This document shows positions 33,252-63,382 of a DNA stretch of 64,000 nt, in pieces; position 1 is the stretch's first letter; every line of letters starts with the position of its first letter. The stretch is from assembly GCA_947458275.1 (NCBI GenBank), contig CANGYR010000004.1, forward strand, positions 62,001 through 126,000, read 5' to 3'. This stretch comes from Chitinophagaceae bacterium (GTDB taxonomy: Bacteria > Bacteroidota > Bacteroidia > Chitinophagales > Chitinophagaceae). The position numbers were made by a program, and so were the translations under genes. Under the pieces are notes generated by a model that worked only from the letters and a program-made list of their open reading frames with translations, searched no databases and was not told the DNA's origin.

Positions 33252-33259
33252 TATTTTTG
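33252..33259 (+). promoter_or_regulatory. -7 element exactly four bases before the DUF2279 gene start
   Basis: TATTTTTG matches TAnnTTTG; only TTTT separates it from the ATG at 33264. If it is functional, transcription begins at or next to the start codon and the mRNA is leaderless. The same N4 spacing occurs before hscB, the permease, the BtuF-like gene and pyrE. Confidence 0.6.
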
Positions 33260-33263
33260 TTTT

Positions 33264-34286
33264 ATGAATTTAAATTCCGGTCATATTAATAAATTCATTT
33301 CAATCAGTACAGAAAAGCGTTTCAACAAAATATGCTGTTTGATTCTTTGTTTCTTTTTTTTCATTCATTCTCTTTCATTTGCTCAAACAGACAGCATTCT
33401 ATATAATAATCATCCTGATACAAACCTACTCATCTCCTCCGGAAATAAAACTGCCATCAGAAATGTTGCCATAGCCAACGGCGTAATTTATGGTGGTAGT
33501 CTTACTGCATTGTATTTCGCATGGTATAAAAATTATCCTCAAAGTCATTTTCGCACTTTCAATGATTTTGACGAATGGAAGCAGATGGATAAAATCGGAC
33601 ATGTTTACAGTGCCTATACCATGAGCAGATACAGTACTGAGATATGGAAGAGCACAGGAATGGAAAGGGAAAAAAGCATCTGGATTGGCGGACTGAGTGG
33701 CATTGCTTATCAGACGATTATTGAAACGCTGGATGGATTCAGTGCCGAATGGGGATGGAGCTGGGCAGATGTGGGTGGGAATATTCTGGGAAGCGCCGCT
33801 TTTATGGCACAGGAACTGGCATGGAATGAGCAAAGAATACAATTGAAGACCTCCTTCCATCGGAAGACTTATGCTGATGCCTCGTTGAATCAAAGAAGCA
33901 ATGCCTTGTTTGGTAAAACTGCTGCCGAAAGATTTCTGAAAGATTATAATGGCCAAACTTATTGGGCCAGCGCCAATCTTCGGTCATTTTTTCCTCATTC
34001 TAACATTCCATCCTGGTTGCAGGTATCCGTTGGCGTAGGTGCCGAAGGTATGTTTGGCGGCAGAGAAAATATTGCGAAAGACAAAGATGGAAATATCACT
34101 TTTTCAAGACCGGATATTAAAAGATACCGGCAATGGTATCTAGCTCCGGATATAGACCTCACCAAAATAAAAACGAAAAATAAATACCTGAAGGGACTGC
34201 TATTCGTATTGAATTCATTGAAATTCCCAATGCCCTCGCTGGAATTGTCCAATGGTGGACTGAAATGGAATTGGTTGCATTTTTAA
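33264..34286 (+). CDS. DUF2279 family exported protein
   Basis: A 340-residue protein with an N-terminal hydrophobic segment (ICCLILCFFFFIHSLSFAQ, about 23-41) that reads as a signal peptide preceded by a basic stretch. The body holds the DUF2279 core: DEWKQMDKIGHVYSAYTMSR, then EWGWSWADVGGNILGS and a C-terminal beta-rich region. The family is found in Bacteroidetes as a predicted periplasmic protein with no known function. The start at 33264 is backed by a -7 element four bases upstream. Confidence 0.82.
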   Translation: MNLNSGHINKFISISTEKRFNKICCLILCFFFFIHSLSFAQTDSILYNNHPDTNLLISSGNKTAIRNVAIANGVIYGGSLTALYFAWYKNYPQSHFRTFNDFDEWKQMDKIGHVYSAYTMSRYSTEIWKSTGMEREKSIWIGGLSGIAYQTIIETLDGFSAEWGWSWADVGGNILGSAAFMAQELAWNEQRIQLKTSFHRKTYADASLNQRSNALFGKTAAERFLKDYNGQTYWASANLRSFFPHSNIPSWLQVSVGVGAEGMFGGRENIAKDKDGNITFSRPDIKRYRQWYLAPDIDLTKIKTKNKYLKGLLFVLNSLKFPMPSLELSNGGLKWNWLHF

Positions 34287-40847: not shown

Positions 40848-40883
40848 TTTGAGTAATTGCCGATATTGTAATAGATTTGAAAA

Positions 40884-41537
40884 ATGCAACAACAGGAACT
40901 ATTCAAAAAAATATACCGAACTGATATTACCGGAGCGGACCGCATTAAATTGTTGCATCAGTCTGTCGAAGCATACCCCTTCTTCGGTTTGTCTTATTTT
41001 TTTCTGTTGAAAGAACTCGAAAAAGGAAGTGATCATTTCAATGAAATTGTCCCAAAAACTGCGCTTCATTTTAAAAACAACTACTGGCTAAATCTTCAAC
41101 TCAATCAGGATGATGCTAAAAGGATTTTAAATGATGAGCAACCAGTTGAGAAAAAAGAAAAAGCGCCCAAAGAAGATTTTCTTTTTGAGCCATTATATAC
41201 CACCGATTATTTTGCCTCCCAGGGTATAAAGTTTTCTGAAGAGCAACAACCTACAGATAAATTGGGAAACCAGGTGAAAAGTTTTACCCAGTGGCTCAAA
41301 ACCATGAAGAAAGTTCATGGAAATACACTGCCTGAAACCAATGCCCCTATAGACAATGCCGTAGAAAAGCTCGCTGAAAAGAGCAATACGGAGACCGCTG
41401 TTATTACGGAAACAATGGCCGAAGTCTTTGTTCAACAGGGAAAAATTGACAAAGCCATTGACGTATATAAAAAATTAAGTTTGCAAAATCCTGCCAAAAG
41501 TGCTTACTTTGCAGACAAAATTGAATATTTAAAGTAA
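40884..41537 (+). CDS. hypothetical protein with C-terminal TPR-like segment
   Basis: A 217-residue soluble protein of unknown function. Residues 1-60 look helical; the middle (about 80-170) is charged and low in hydrophobics, and the C terminus carries one TPR-like pair of helices (MAEVFVQQGKIDKAIDVYKKLSLQNPAKSAYFADKIEYL). No signal peptide. It lies 36 bases after lptE and 6 bases before secG, so it belongs to the same operon. Confidence 0.75.
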   Translation: MQQQELFKKIYRTDITGADRIKLLHQSVEAYPFFGLSYFFLLKELEKGSDHFNEIVPKTALHFKNNYWLNLQLNQDDAKRILNDEQPVEKKEKAPKEDFLFEPLYTTDYFASQGIKFSEEQQPTDKLGNQVKSFTQWLKTMKKVHGNTLPETNAPIDNAVEKLAEKSNTETAVITETMAEVFVQQGKIDKAIDVYKKLSLQNPAKSAYFADKIEYLK

Positions 41538-55892: not shown

Positions 55893-56381
55893 TTAATCCA
55901 TCATTCTATCCAAAATACGTTGCAGGTATTTTTTCTTGAAATAATACTCCTTAATTTTCAATAAATCATCCTGAGTTGTTTGCTCATTGTAATTGTCCAG
56001 TACAGGTTTAATTTCAGTCAGCAACCTAGTTTCATATTCTCCTACCCTTCGCTCCGCATCAGCTCTGTCCATTTCCAAAAGATCCTCGTTCCAATCCATC
56101 ATCTCCATTAAAAAACTATCGGGCAATTTATATTTCTCCTCCTCCTGAAGCAAGCCCTTCTCCTTTAAAAAATAGGCAATGGTCAACTGATCATCTTTAA
56201 GCGTATTAAATGCCTTATTAATCAACGCCGATTGTTCCAATGCTTCCTCCTTCTCTGCATCCGTTGCCTGTGAAAAAAAATCTGGGTGATTCCGCTTCTG
56301 CAATTCAAAATATTTCCTGGATAAATCACGTTTATCTATGCGCGGAGCCATATCCAGTCCAAATAATTCAAAATAGTTCAT
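55893..56381 (-). CDS. hscB: Fe-S cluster co-chaperone HscB (J-domain protein)
   Basis: A 162-residue J-domain protein: the HPD motif lies in KRNHPDFF (about residue 33), with NYFELFGLDM at the N terminus as in HscB, followed by the C-terminal three-helix HscB domain that binds IscU. HscB delivers the scaffold to the HscA chaperone during iron-sulfur cluster assembly. No isc genes are adjacent. The ATG at 56381 is preferred over a GTG one codon earlier, and a perfect -7 element lies exactly four bases before it. Confidence 0.88.
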   Translation of the reverse strand: MNYFELFGLDMAPRIDKRDLSRKYFELQKRNHPDFFSQATDAEKEEALEQSALINKAFNTLKDDQLTIAYFLKEKGLLQEEEKYKLPDSFLMEMMDWNEDLLEMDRADAERRVGEYETRLLTEIKPVLDNYNEQTTQDDLLKIKEYYFKKKYLQRILDRMMD

Positions 56382-56385
56382 CACA

Positions 56386-56393
56386 CAAATTTA
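56386..56393 (-). promoter_or_regulatory. -7 element exactly four bases before hscB
   Basis: On the minus strand TAAATTTG is followed by TGTG and the ATG. The N4 spacing matches four other genes in the window and implies a leaderless transcript. Confidence 0.62.
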
Positions 56394-59812: not shown

Positions 59813-61054
59813 TCAACTCCGAATCGCTTTCACCGGATCCATCTTAGCTGCACGCGACGCAGGAATGATTCCGGCTAAAATGCCTACAACAATACAAATG
59901 ATCATTGTAGTGAAAATCATCGGCAAAGATAAGTAAACCGGAAATTCAAGCGGACCGGATAATATCAACGTAAGAATGTAGACAAAAATCAGTCCGATTA
60001 TACCTCCGAGTATGCATAAAATAGCCGCTTCCAGTAAAAATTCAAAGAGTATGGTCATCTTCTTTGCACCTATGGCTTTTTTCAATCCAATCACCGGCGT
60101 CCTTTCTTTCACAGTTACAAACATAATATTGGCAATGCCAAACATGCCGACAATCAGGCTGATACCGCCAATGATAGAACCTACAATATTAATCGTAACA
60201 AACGAATCTGAAATCGCTTTACTGAATGCTTCTACGCTATTCAATGAAAAATTATCCTCCTGCGTTGGACTCAACCTTCTGATTTGCCGCATGATTCCTC
60301 TCAATTCCTGCATGTATGCGTCGGTGGTAGTTGAGGGAATTCCTTTGGCTATCACAATGGGATTGGATTTTTCCGGATCAAAAATCTGACGGGCAAATTT
60401 ATTGGTAAGCATGATACATTTGTCATAATCCCAACCAATGAAACTCTTACCCTCTTTCTTTATCACTCCGATGATTCTTACTTTTTTTCCTTTTACCTCA
60501 AGATACTGCCCCATCGCCCTTTCGGCAGATCCATATAAATCTTCAGCGTTTACATATCCTATAATACAGTTATTGGATCCGGCGTTAAACTCTGCTGTTG
60601 AAAAATACCTGCCAAGCTCAAATTGAATTGGCTGTATGGATATCTGAGGTTCGCTGATCGCATATACTCTTGCCTCTTCAATCACATCATCCTTATGGGA
60701 TATGTTTGTAATGTTTTGTAAAAGATACGTAACCTCATCGGTAAGAAGTGATCGCTGTTTAATCAACTCAGGCTCTTCGATTTTCATAATAGGCCTTGCA
60801 CGAAGTTTCCACATAGGTTTATTCGGCCCACCGCTGTAATCCCATTTGTCGATATAAATGGTATTGCTACCCAGACTCTTCACTTCATTCTGAATATTTT
60901 TTTCCAGACTGCCCACTGTAGTAAGTACACCAATAATACAGAATATACCAAATGCCACACCAGTCAGACTGAGTGCTGTGCGCAATTTATTCACCCTCAA
61001 TTCCTGAAGAGTCAATCGCATGGAATTCAGTAAAATACTGATGGTATGACGCAT
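59813..61054 (-). CDS. ABC transporter permease, MacB/FtsX type
   Basis: A 413-residue permease: one N-terminal helix (ALSLTGVAFGIFCIIGVLTTV), a ~230-residue periplasmic MacB_PCD domain, and three C-terminal helices in the FtsX domain (IVGSIIGGISLIVGMFGIANIMFVTVKERTPVIGLKKAIGA onward, the coupling segment REIGxxKAxGA-like). No ATPase or membrane-fusion gene is adjacent, so partners must be encoded elsewhere. The substrate (lipoproteins, macrolides or other) is unknown. A -7 element lies four bases before the ATG and 8-bp arrays flank the gene on both sides. Confidence 0.88.
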   Translation of the reverse strand: MRHTISILLNSMRLTLQELRVNKLRTALSLTGVAFGIFCIIGVLTTVGSLEKNIQNEVKSLGSNTIYIDKWDYSGGPNKPMWKLRARPIMKIEEPELIKQRSLLTDEVTYLLQNITNISHKDDVIEEARVYAISEPQISIQPIQFELGRYFSTAEFNAGSNNCIIGYVNAEDLYGSAERAMGQYLEVKGKKVRIIGVIKKEGKSFIGWDYDKCIMLTNKFARQIFDPEKSNPIVIAKGIPSTTTDAYMQELRGIMRQIRRLSPTQEDNFSLNSVEAFSKAISDSFVTINIVGSIIGGISLIVGMFGIANIMFVTVKERTPVIGLKKAIGAKKMTILFEFLLEAAILCILGGIIGLIFVYILTLILSGPLEFPVYLSLPMIFTTMIICIVVGILAGIIPASRAAKMDPVKAIRS

Positions 61055-61058
61055 GGTA

Positions 61059-61066
61059 CAAAGGTA
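61059..61066 (-). promoter_or_regulatory. -7 element exactly four bases before the permease gene
   Basis: TACCTTTG-TACC-ATG on the minus strand. The same TACCTTTG with N4 spacing occurs before pyrE. The -33 region falls in or beside the 8-bp array that starts at 61076. Confidence 0.65.
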
Positions 61067-61075
61067 GATAATTAG

Positions 61076-61123
61076 GAGATGTGGAAATGTGAAGATGTGG
61101 AAATGTGTAGATGTGAAAATTAG
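61076..61123. repeat. six 8-bp units (GAAATGTG / GAGATGTG family)
   Basis: GAGATGTG, GAAATGTG, AAGATGTG, GAAATGTG, TAGATGTG and AAAATTAG divide 48 bases without slippage. It is the inverted counterpart of the CATCTCCA array at the other end of the permease gene, and occupies positions -17 to -64 relative to the presumed permease -7 element. Confidence 0.85.
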
Positions 61124-61138
61124 CAGACTGCATCAACT

Positions 61139-61170
61139 CCCCTCCTTTGGAGGGGTTAGGGGGAGGTCAA
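61139..61170. repeat. CCCCTCC-TTT-GGAGGGG hairpin followed by G-rich tail
   Basis: A 7-bp G+C-only-type stem with three-base loop (61139-61155) is followed by TTAGGGGGAGG. There is no T-run, so it is not an intrinsic terminator in either direction. It resembles a G+C-rich dispersed palindrome set in A+T-rich DNA, between the divergent permease and BtuF-like promoters. Confidence 0.65.
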
Positions 61171-61204
61171 CTTAATCTGCTGATGCAGAGATGTGATTTG
61201 TCCT

Positions 61205-61212
61205 TAAATTTG
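61205..61212 (+). promoter_or_regulatory. -7 element exactly four bases before the BtuF-like gene
   Basis: TAAATTTG-GAAT-ATG. With the permease element it forms a divergent pair of N4 promoters around the 61.07-61.20 kb repeats. I see no cobalamin riboswitch in this 162-base spacer. Confidence 0.64.
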
Positions 61213-61216
61213 GAAT

Positions 61217-61996
61217 ATGTTTATCGAATCATCCTCTTCCCTGACAATTGCCCCAAAAAGAATCATCTCTTTAGTGCCGTCGCAGACTGCCTTGTTGCAT
61301 AGTCTTGGATTAGATGAAGAAGTGATAGGCATCACTAAATTTTGCATACATCCCAGGGAATGGTTTGACAACAAGACGAGAATTGGCGGGACCAAAGCGC
61401 TGAATATTGATAAGATAATTGAGCTGCAACCGGATTTAATCATTGCCAATAAAGAAGAAAATGTAAAAGATCAGGTGGAAATGCTGGCTGAAAAATTTCC
61501 GGTATGGATGACGGATGTCAACAATCTGGATGATGCCATTCAAATGATAACTGATATCGGCTCACTCACTCATAAAAACAATGAAGCTGATAAAATCAAT
61601 TCCCGCATATTTGAATCATTCAGCTCAATTAAAAATACTGAAAAGCAAATACCGGCCGCCTACCTCATCTGGAAAAATCCTTACATGACTATTGGCGGCG
61701 ATACTTTTATACATGATATGATGGATAAAGCAGGATTCAGCAATGTATTCGGACAGAAGAAGCGATATCCCGAAATATCAATTGAGCAGTTGAGGGAATC
61801 CGGTTGTAAAATGATATTACTTTCCAGCGAGCCCTACCCTTTTAAAGAAAAACATATTGAAGAATTAGAAGCGGAATTGCCAGATGTAAAAGCTGTTATT
61901 GCAGATGGCGAAATGTTTAGCTGGTATGGCAGTCACCTGTTGTCATCTCCCGGGTATTTCAGCGAATTATACCAAAAATGCGTCCAGGCGTTATAG
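61217..61996 (+). CDS. BtuF-like helical-backbone metal receptor protein
   Basis: A 259-residue cluster A-3 substrate-binding fold: RIISLVPSQTALLHSLGLDEEVIGITKFC at the start, the ELQPDLIIAN segment and the long backbone helix around 85-110 are as in BtuF-type cobalamin and heme binders. Unusually, there is no signal peptide or lipobox; the ATG is fixed by the -7 element four bases upstream. A cytoplasmic or atypically exported protein is therefore likely. No BtuC/BtuD-type partner is adjacent. Confidence 0.83.
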   Translation: MFIESSSSLTIAPKRIISLVPSQTALLHSLGLDEEVIGITKFCIHPREWFDNKTRIGGTKALNIDKIIELQPDLIIANKEENVKDQVEMLAEKFPVWMTDVNNLDDAIQMITDIGSLTHKNNEADKINSRIFESFSSIKNTEKQIPAAYLIWKNPYMTIGGDTFIHDMMDKAGFSNVFGQKKRYPEISIEQLRESGCKMILLSSEPYPFKEKHIEELEAELPDVKAVIADGEMFSWYGSHLLSSPGYFSELYQKCVQAL

Positions 61997-62013: not shown

Positions 62014-62646
62014 TCAAATCCCTTTCCACTCTGAAGGATTTTCTCTCCAGCTTAATAAGATATCCAATTCATCCGCACCTACTGTTTTATTTTCGACAGC
62101 AAGCTCAATCAAAACTCCATAATTAGTCAGTGAAATCAGCGGAATTCCTGCTTTTTCAAAAGCTTCTTTCGCCTGAGGAAATCCGTAATTAAAAATTGAC
62201 ACCATACCAATAACCTCAGCGCCCGTTTGTTTCAATACCTCACAAACCTGCAAGCTGCTCTTTCCGGTGGAGATAAGATCTTCGATGACCAATATTTTTT
62301 GTCCGGCACTAACCACTCCTTCAATCTGATTACCCATGCCATGTTCTTTGGGCTTCGGCCTTACATAACTAAAAGGCAATTTCAATTGATCAGCAGCCAT
62401 GGCACCCCAGGAGATTCCTGCCGTAGCCACACCTGCCAATGCCTCCGCATCAGGAAATTTTTCGAAGATGACACTGCACAATTCACTTTTAATAAAGTCT
62501 CTGTCGTAAGGAAAAGACAGTACTTTTCTGTTGTCGCAATAAATCGGACTTTTCCAGCCGCTGGCCCAGGTATATGGTTGCTGAAGATTCAATTTTACCG
62601 CCTGCACCTGTAATAATCTGGAGGCTACCGCTTTTTCGTTTGTCAT
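62014..62646 (-). CDS. pyrE: orotate phosphoribosyltransferase
   Basis: A 210-residue enzyme that makes orotidine 5'-phosphate from orotate and PRPP in de novo pyrimidine synthesis. The PRPP loop is VLVIEDLISTGKSS; the N-terminal LNLQQPYTWASGWKSPIYCDNR and the flexible-loop AKPKEHGMG-like segment (VRPKPKEHGMGNQ) are typical. The frame is open to 62790, but those 48 residues are a translation of the 9-bp repeat (NLFNLFNFF), so the start is the ATG at 62646, preceded by TACCTTTG and four bases. Confidence 0.95.
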   Translation of the reverse strand: MTNEKAVASRLLQVQAVKLNLQQPYTWASGWKSPIYCDNRKVLSFPYDRDFIKSELCSVIFEKFPDAEALAGVATAGISWGAMAADQLKLPFSYVRPKPKEHGMGNQIEGVVSAGQKILVIEDLISTGKSSLQVCEVLKQTGAEVIGMVSIFNYGFPQAKEAFEKAGIPLISLTNYGVLIELAVENKTVGADELDILLSWRENPSEWKGI

Positions 62647-62650
62647 GGTG

Positions 62651-62658
62651 CAAAGGTA
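62651..62658 (-). promoter_or_regulatory. -7 element exactly four bases before pyrE
   Basis: TACCTTTG-CACC-ATG on the minus strand. The 9-bp array begins 11 bases upstream of the element and replaces any -33 sequence. Confidence 0.66.
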
Positions 62659-62669
62659 AGGAAATGGAG

Positions 62670-62723
62670 GGTTGAAGAGGTTGAAGAGGTTGAAGAAGTT
62701 GAAGAGGTTGAAGAGGTTGAAAA
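62670..62723. repeat. six 9-bp units (GGTTGAAGA)
   Basis: GGTTGAAGA three times, AGTTGAAGA, GGTTGAAGA and GGTTGAAAA make 54 bases in perfect register. Because 9 is a multiple of three, the array translates as a three-residue repeat on both strands, which lengthens the pyrE frame falsely. The same unit occurs at 54337-54408. Confidence 0.9.
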
Positions 62724-62738
62724 ATTTTATGTAATTTG

Positions 62739-62778
62739 CTAATCGCCGAATTGTCGAATTGTCGAATAGCCAAATTGA
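62739..62778. repeat. five 8-bp units (CGAATTGT) ending four bases before the NUDIX start
   Basis: CTAATCGC, CGAATTGT twice, CGAATAGC and CAAATTGA fill 40 bases; four bases later is the ATG at 62783. The reverse-complement family (CAATTCGG) lies at the other end of the same gene, 63375-63422. Confidence 0.85.
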
Positions 62779-62782
62779 AATC

Positions 62783-63382
62783 ATGTCCATAAAAATTCAT
62801 TTCCCCGATTTCAACCTGTTGCTCTGCACTGATGTGGAATTTAATCAACTGGATAAAGCCTTGAATTTATCAGTGATACGCAACGATTTTGAAAATGCTA
62901 TTGCTAAAATGATGGCAGATAAAAACAATCAAAATACAGTTTTTATCCACGACGATATTGATTACTTACAATCAATCATCCAAAAACAATTTATAGTCAT
63001 AGAAGCTGCTGGCGGTTTGGTGGAAAATAATTTCAACGAAATTCTTTTCATTTTCAGAAGAGGAAAATGGGACTTACCAAAAGGGAAAAAAGAAGAAGAT
63101 GAAGATATTGCTGTCTGCGCCGAAAGAGAAATTGAAGAAGAAACGGGCGTTTCACATCTTACTTTGATAAAAAAATTAACCGAGACTTACCATATATACG
63201 AAGAAAGAGGAAATAACATACTCAAAATAAGCCACTGGTTTCACTTCAAATGCCCGGACCGACAACATCCAATTCCTCAGACTGAAGAAGATATCACTGA
63301 GATAAAATGGATAAATAAAAACAACCTGAACGAACCATTATTGAATACTTATGAAACAATTAGAGAGGTTTTGGCAATTTGA
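62783..63382 (+). CDS. NUDIX hydrolase
   Basis: A 199-residue protein with an N-terminal ~65-residue extension and a NUDIX domain: the box spans KGKKEEDEDIAVCAEREIEEETGV, with the conserved R-E-x2-E-E glutamates intact and LPKG just before, as in diphosphoinositol/diadenosine polyphosphate hydrolases. The substrate is unknown. I use the ATG at 62783 rather than a TTG at 62759 inside the upstream array. The stop codon itself lies in the first unit of the downstream array, so the gene is enclosed by inverted 8-bp repeats. Confidence 0.88.
   Translation: MSIKIHFPDFNLLLCTDVEFNQLDKALNLSVIRNDFENAIAKMMADKNNQNTVFIHDDIDYLQSIIQKQFIVIEAAGGLVENNFNEILFIFRRGKWDLPKGKKEEDEDIAVCAEREIEEETGVSHLTLIKKLTETYHIYEERGNNILKISHWFHFKCPDRQHPIPQTEEDITEIKWINKNNLNEPLLNTYETIREVLAI

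Follow-up and report, generated by a model that had tools for sequence, protein, structure and literature searches.

Promoter boxes four bases before the start codon suggest leaderless mRNAs at a minority of genes in a Chitinophagaceae genome

A few percent of the genes in this genome carry the box TAnnTTTG in a fixed register with the start codon, most often with exactly four bases between box and ATG (N4 below, other distances being written likewise). The pattern is real and conserved, and the leaderless type to which it points is already known in the phylum. Its computed features are the box itself, the exact register, an excess over chance, two-peaked distances (N4-5 and about N14-24) and conservation within the genus. 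Very probably the N4 genes have ordinary Bacteroidota housekeeping-sigma promoters, with transcription starting at or near the A of the ATG and AUG-first mRNAs that are translated leaderless. The earlier note on this DNA had expected mRNAs beginning at or next to the start codon, and this expectation is supported, by inference, by the N4 peak of the distance histogram, the samples of four relatives, 41 of 54 orthologues and the mapped transcript starts of Flavobacterium johnsoniae (PMC6847099, as far as its accessible text goes).

Boxes and genes in the window

The window, i.e. the whole stretch of DNA that was analysed, is 64,000 nt long (G000:C4:62001-126000) and belongs to a genome of 2.885 Mb in 87 contigs. 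Direct reading of its sequence gave, on the permease side (minus strand), TACCTTTG-TACC-ATG with the box at 61059-61066 and the ATG at 61054-61052, and on the BtuF-like side (plus strand) TAAATTTG-GAAT-ATG with the box at 61205-61212 and the ATG at 61217. Both motifs of this divergent pair thus lie where the earlier note had placed them, with N4 spacing. A pattern search found TANNTTTGNNNNATG six times in the window, with the ATG at 33264 (+), 40884 (+), 56381 (-), 61054 (-), 61217 (+) and 62646 (-); the shared spacing claimed earlier holds, and the genes that have it number six instead of five. The boxes and the genes behind them are as follows.

61059..61066, minus strand: -7 box TACCTTTG of the permease gene, N4 before ATG
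59813..61054, minus strand: MacB/FtsX-type permease gene, putatively leaderless (Pfam MacB_PCD and FtsX; start kept in same-genus orthologues)
61205..61212, plus strand: -7 box TAAATTTG of the BtuF-like gene, N4 before ATG
61217..61996, plus strand: BtuF-like gene, putatively leaderless (Pfam Peripla_BP_2; same-genus orthologues have ATG at or beside residue 1)
62651..62658, minus strand: -7 box TACCTTTG of the PyrE-like gene, N4 before ATG
62014..62646, minus strand: PyrE-like phosphoribosyltransferase gene, putatively leaderless (Pfam Pribosyltran; start 62646)
56386..56393, minus strand: -7 box TAAATTTG of the HscB-like gene, N4 before ATG
55893..56381, minus strand: HscB-like co-chaperone gene, putatively leaderless (Pfam scan and orthologues)
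40872..40879, plus strand: -7 box TAGATTTG of gene 40884, N4 before ATG
40884..41537, plus strand: gene with no Pfam match, putatively leaderless (Pfam scan and orthologues)
33252..33259, plus strand: -7 box TATTTTTG of the DUF2279 gene, N4 before ATG, the weakest of the six
33264..34286, plus strand: DUF2279 gene, possibly leaderless (N-terminus poorly conserved; the gene caller picked a different start)

The name PyrE for the product of 62014..62646 is our reading of the Pfam Pribosyltran match. The longest ORF of this gene (62014-62790) begins at 62790; orthologues and the promoter box favour 62646. Among the best 80 BtuF-like relatives in named genomes, many carry the label of Chitinophagaceae or of a genus within it, so this genome is probably a member of that family or close to it. 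Counted by called start, the window has five N4 genes and the genome rate predicts 1.3. This local excess is weak, having been spotted after the fact, and it may be a matter of selection since the window was chosen for its N4 genes. Between the two divergent promoters lies a G+C-rich hairpin (61136-61168) that resembles Rfam whalefall-1 and scores 19 bits against a cut-off of 37. The idea that it is a dispersed repeat was dropped, as just three loose matches occurred in the sample, the window's own copy included.

Distance from box to start codon

The earlier note had proposed a genome-wide histogram of distances from TAnnTTTG to annotated starts as a check, with a sharp N4 peak as support. 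The histogram was run on 44% of the genome, namely 60 fetched stretches plus the window (1.258 Mb of 2.885 Mb), in which 1005 genes were called by a simple hexamer caller written for this analysis that made no use of the motif; the totals of 1005 and 1009 in different runs reflect a different training threshold of the caller. The sharp N4 peak was found. The counts from N0 to N6 were 0, 0, 0, 3, 24, 11 and 5, followed by one to five genes per position at N7-13 and a broad second peak at N14-24. The N4 count was robust to the choice of start, being 22 by longest ORF and 24 by first ATG. In all, 43 of the 1005 genes had the box at N3-6, and 35 had it at N4-5. The relaxed box TAnnTTTA was also in excess at N4, with 10 genes against 2.08 per position farther upstream.

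In F. johnsoniae the -7 box lies at -12..-5 and many mapped starts follow 4-5 nt after the box, as described in the accessible text of PMC6847099. The same distance may apply here, by analogy with such mapped relatives. The housekeeping sigma factor would then recognise the -7 box TAnnTTTG set N4-5 before the ATG, transcription would begin on the A of the ATG or about one base away from it, and the mRNA would open with AUG and be translated as a leaderless message. With the box at N4 and a start 4-5 nt after it, +1 would be the A of the AUG. It is from sequence that we infer both the transcript starts in this genome and the translation from a 5'-terminal AUG.

A different explanation is that the box is no promoter at all: the mRNA would come from a promoter farther upstream, and the box would sit in its leader as a signal for translation initiation. 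Among the 35 genes with the box at N4-5, six do lie less than 50 bp behind a gene on the same strand, and for some of them read-through from upstream is possible. The second peak at N14-24, however, fits a promoter and not a ribosome signal at a fixed distance. Moreover, F. johnsoniae is known to use A-rich signals for initiation (PMC6847099, accessible text), whereas A is rare at -13 here, and Shine-Dalgarno (SD)-like motifs seldom precede the starts of this genome (4 of 1007 genes; a control stretch of equal length has 17). We regard a pure translation signal as quite unlikely.

Start codon and translation signals

The signals just mentioned were compared in five genomes. The start codon was ATG in 73 of 74 genes with the box at N3-6 and GTG in one; among all called genes it was ATG in 1666 of 1881. 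In F. johnsoniae, the accessible text of PMC6847099 describes A-rich initiation signals at -3, -6, -12 and -13, with an A-rich translation enhancer at -14..-11. In the five genomes, A stood at -13 in 5 of 43 N4 genes and in 605 of 1451 others; at -3 it was not reduced (18 of 43 N4 genes, 600 of 1466 others). Scarcity of A at -13 is expected if the DNA there is promoter and not leader, and the promoter context alone could explain it. A hidden anti-SD in F. johnsoniae is discussed in a 2024 survey (PMC10783764, accessible text). In the present genome bS21 is present, and a search for the anti-SD of 16S rRNA with a 3'-end pattern gave no match.

Promoter type and the -33 element

The -7 box TAnnTTTG of sigma-ABfr promoters is present in the window and in the genome sample. 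The base directly after the box was C in 51% and T in 31% of the 35 N4-5 genes, and G made up 3-6% at the two middle positions, a scarcity shared with F. johnsoniae (PMC6847099, accessible text). The earlier note had reported that neither promoter of the permease/BtuF-like pair has a -33 TTTG; the sequence bears this out, TTTG near -33 being absent from both. It had also taken this absence as the mark of a distinct class, which did not hold: the counts of promoters with TTTG starting at about -38 to -30 are 4 of 35 for the leaderless type, 12 of 83 for the leadered and 8 of 89 for the far ones, so that leadered promoters lack it about as often. The leadered count of 12 is slightly above those of other stretches of equal length (5, 6 and 7 of 83). 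The sigma-ABfr promoter is described as -33 TTTG / -7 TAnnTTTG, and in F. johnsoniae the -33 signal is hardly visible (PMC6847099, accessible text); here the -7 box is likewise present and the -33 element appears weak. The promoters of the N4-5 genes appear to differ from sigma-ABfr promoters only in their placement before the ATG.

Conservation of the register among orthologues

Within the genus, orthologues of the six window genes had TAnnTTT[GA] at N3-6 in 41 of 54 cases and the exact TAnnTTTG in 33 of 54; 7, 30, 1 and 3 of the boxes stood at N3, N4, N5 and N6. For orthologues at N3 the start would fall inside the AUG, unless the distance from box to start is shorter there. For the permease the relaxed box at N3-6 was found in 8 of 9 orthologues from the genus and 1 of 5 from other families; for the BtuF-like gene the counts were 10 of 11 and 0 of 5, the exact TAnnTTTG accounting for 3 of the 11. 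The PyrE-like gene has a box at N3-6 in 7 of 8 orthologues from the genus and 4 of 7 from other families, and the HscB-like gene in 6 of 9 and 0 of 1. For gene 40884 it was 6 of 9 usable same-genus orthologues, and for DUF2279 4 of 8 usable ones (four more were unusable) and 0 of 1 from another family. Outside the genus the register was thus kept in only 5 of 19 orthologues, four of these PyrE-like. Over -50..-14 (37 bases, ungapped) the mean identity of same-genus orthologues to the window copy was 0.30, and at the fixed bases of the box it was T 0.74, A 0.67, T 0.83, T 0.85, T 0.91 and G 0.54.

These counts leave out nine loci that lie at a contig edge or lack a usable ATG close to residue 1 (L108, L244, L272, L273, L280, L282, L283, L284 and L286) and also L288, ten in all, of which five are from the same genus (L244, L272, L273, L280 and L284). 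L287 (G007, same genus), which has no box, is counted among the 54. Fragments, paralogues or weak matches had been excluded beforehand for the permease (L198, L199, L205-L208, L210-L213), the PyrE-like gene (L229, L230, L232-L234), gene 40884 (L246-L258, some of which repeat loci already counted) and the HscB-like gene (L270).

The same alignments bear on whether the start codons were misassigned, with true starts farther downstream and the boxes belonging to normal promoters with short leaders. The DUF2279 start at 33264 would fit this idea, being poorly conserved: in many orthologues the match begins only at residue 17-65, and the caller chose another start. For the permease, PyrE-like, HscB-like and BtuF-like genes, on the other hand, most orthologues from the genus align from residue 1 onwards, with ATG at that position, and a peak as sharp as that at N4 is not the product of random misassignment. 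General misassignment is therefore improbable, to about the same degree as a pure translation signal.

Comparison with chance

The earlier note had put the chance rate at very roughly one gene in two thousand and had held that more genes have the spacing than chance allows. In 200 dinucleotide shuffles of the upstream 60 bases the mean at N4 was 0.85 genes and the maximum 4, against 24 observed among 1003 usable starts. The shuffles give about one gene in 1200, so the estimate was of the right order, and the excess is clear. Nine control motifs had 0-4 genes at N4. A promoter box thus stands in fixed register with the start codon more often than by chance, as expected of leaderless mRNAs. Raw matches to TAnnTTTG-N4-ATG in the whole genome number 85, against 38 with the reversed pattern, so nearly half are expected by chance. 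They include a cluster of five on one contig (G000:C7:112078-114723, 2.7 kb), three of them in 237-bp steps (two such spacings); these look like repeats and are probably intragenic ones instead of starts. That the N4 genes are mere chance matches in A+T-rich sequence is nevertheless very improbable, given 24 at called starts against 0.85 in shuffles and a register that is kept across diverged flanks; the shuffles refute chance for the set as a whole, and a single gene, e.g. that at 33264, could be a chance match.

Relatives and the phylum

Samples of four relatives had 4 of 267 (G008), 2 of 124 (G014), 2 of 171 (G019) and 12 of 312 (G134) genes at N4; pooled (874 genes), 2, 20, 4 and 5 genes had the box at N3, N4, N5 and N6. 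When genes were paired with those of the four samples by reciprocal best hits, a leaderless-type orthologue was found for 6 of 21 leaderless-type genes, against 17 of 349 others (P = 0.0009), with some genes counted in more than one genome and several pairs having called starts that do not correspond. The leaderless-type state was common to both members in 0 of 4 pairs for G008, 4 of 7 for G134, 2 of 6 for G014 and 0 of 4 for G019. The non-leaderless orthologues in 4 of 4 pairs each for G008 and G019 mean that the state is gained and lost, or that starts were miscalled. In G134 the RsmA gene (L330:4826-5578) has a called GTG start with the box at N4 and is a possible leaderless GTG gene.

Raw pattern tallies were taken from 45 of 148 genomes, 37 of the same class and eight of family f29, which lies outside it; as most ATGs are not starts, such tallies are noisy and give hints only. 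N4 exceeded the reversed control in 33 of the 37 same-class genomes and exceeded N9 in 23, whereas in 14 it was not above N9. The family with most genomes (f12, 14 genomes) had 1513 matches at N4 and 1696 at N9. Family f29 had 329 at N4 against 111 at N9 in its eight genomes, and G134 had 80 against 20, both picked after the numbers had been seen; they are possibly lineages with more leaderless genes. Among the remaining 103 genomes many (e.g. in f28) show more matches at N9 than at N4.

Divergent arrangement and gene content

Any meaning in the divergent arrangement of the permease and BtuF-like genes, on which the earlier note had dwelt, finds no support in the relatives examined, where the two are not neighbours. 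The permease turned up in 0 of 97 other fetched BtuF-like loci (1 of 98 with the window's own), the flanks being a few kb, with some contigs ending sooner and some genomes present twice. Nine same-genus genomes have both a permease match (at least 65% identity) and a BtuF-like match, and in all 9 the two were on separate contigs, which alone is weak as the assemblies are fragmented. The pairing is incidental.

Translation-related functions (tRNA, rRNA, aminoacyl-tRNA synthetases) were found in 10 of 33 Pfam-scanned leaderless-type genes; the other two of the 35 N4-5 genes each span two fetched stretches and stayed outside the scan. A leaderless functional class was rejected, as a random leadered control had 12 of 40 and G134 had 3 of 19. 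Functions were sorted by hand from family names with an E-value cut of 0.001 in the first set and of 0.00001 in the rest, and 3 of 66 leadered genes were without a usable reference. Two of the 12 leadered hits, an ABC_tran_Xtn protein and a small GTPase, were counted because we take them to be translation-related. Neither promoter nor gene content was clearly unlike that of leadered genes, as it would be in a separate leaderless class.

Relation to known leaderless systems

According to the accessible texts, 5.5% of the mRNAs with mapped starts in F. psychrophilum are leaderless (PMC9723704), about 3.7% of leaders in Bacteroides thetaiotaomicron are shorter than 10 nt (PMC7366714), and 87% of leaders in F. 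johnsoniae are longer than 10 nt (PMC6847099). The putative leaderless genes here (43 of 1005 called genes, by N3-6) are a similarly small minority, although the F. psychrophilum and B. thetaiotaomicron figures are RNA-mapped, ours is sequence-inferred and the denominators differ. Zheng et al. (2011) read a promoter box lying about 10-12 bp upstream of the start codon as indicating a leaderless gene. In the accessible text they counted Bacteroidetes with the clades where 'atypical' genes are numerous; such genes may be leaderless, with promoter signals then unknown (PMC3160421). Our genes resemble their TA-led leaderless genes in that a box near the start is the sign; the reference box of Zheng et al. 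was the E. coli Pribnow box, whereas the box here is TAnnTTTG, which their survey presumably missed. A literature search, with most subscription journals outside it, found no paper on the N4 register in Chitinophagaceae.

The fixed register suggests that leaderless genes of Bacteroidota may be called from sequence alone, and it aids the choice of start codons, e.g. 62646 over 62790 for the PyrE-like gene. The conserved genes also offer material for tests of how ribosomes whose anti-SD is hidden, as described for F. johnsoniae (PMC10783764, accessible text), would start on a 5'-terminal AUG. A more speculative proposal, which we hold to be rather doubtful, is that within the genus the exact promoter-AUG register is selected at particular genes (for the PyrE-like gene also in some other families), as a leaderless channel whose tuning is separate from that of leadered mRNAs, the phylum being one with a hidden anti-SD. 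If this were true, the trough at N7-N13 would mean selection against very short leaders.

At four loci from other Chitinophagaceae (L124, L134, L144 and L173), TAnnTTGC-like boxes stand a few bases upstream of the BtuF-like start; they resemble motif SM5 (TAnnTTGY) of F. psychrophilum as given in the accessible text of PMC9723704.
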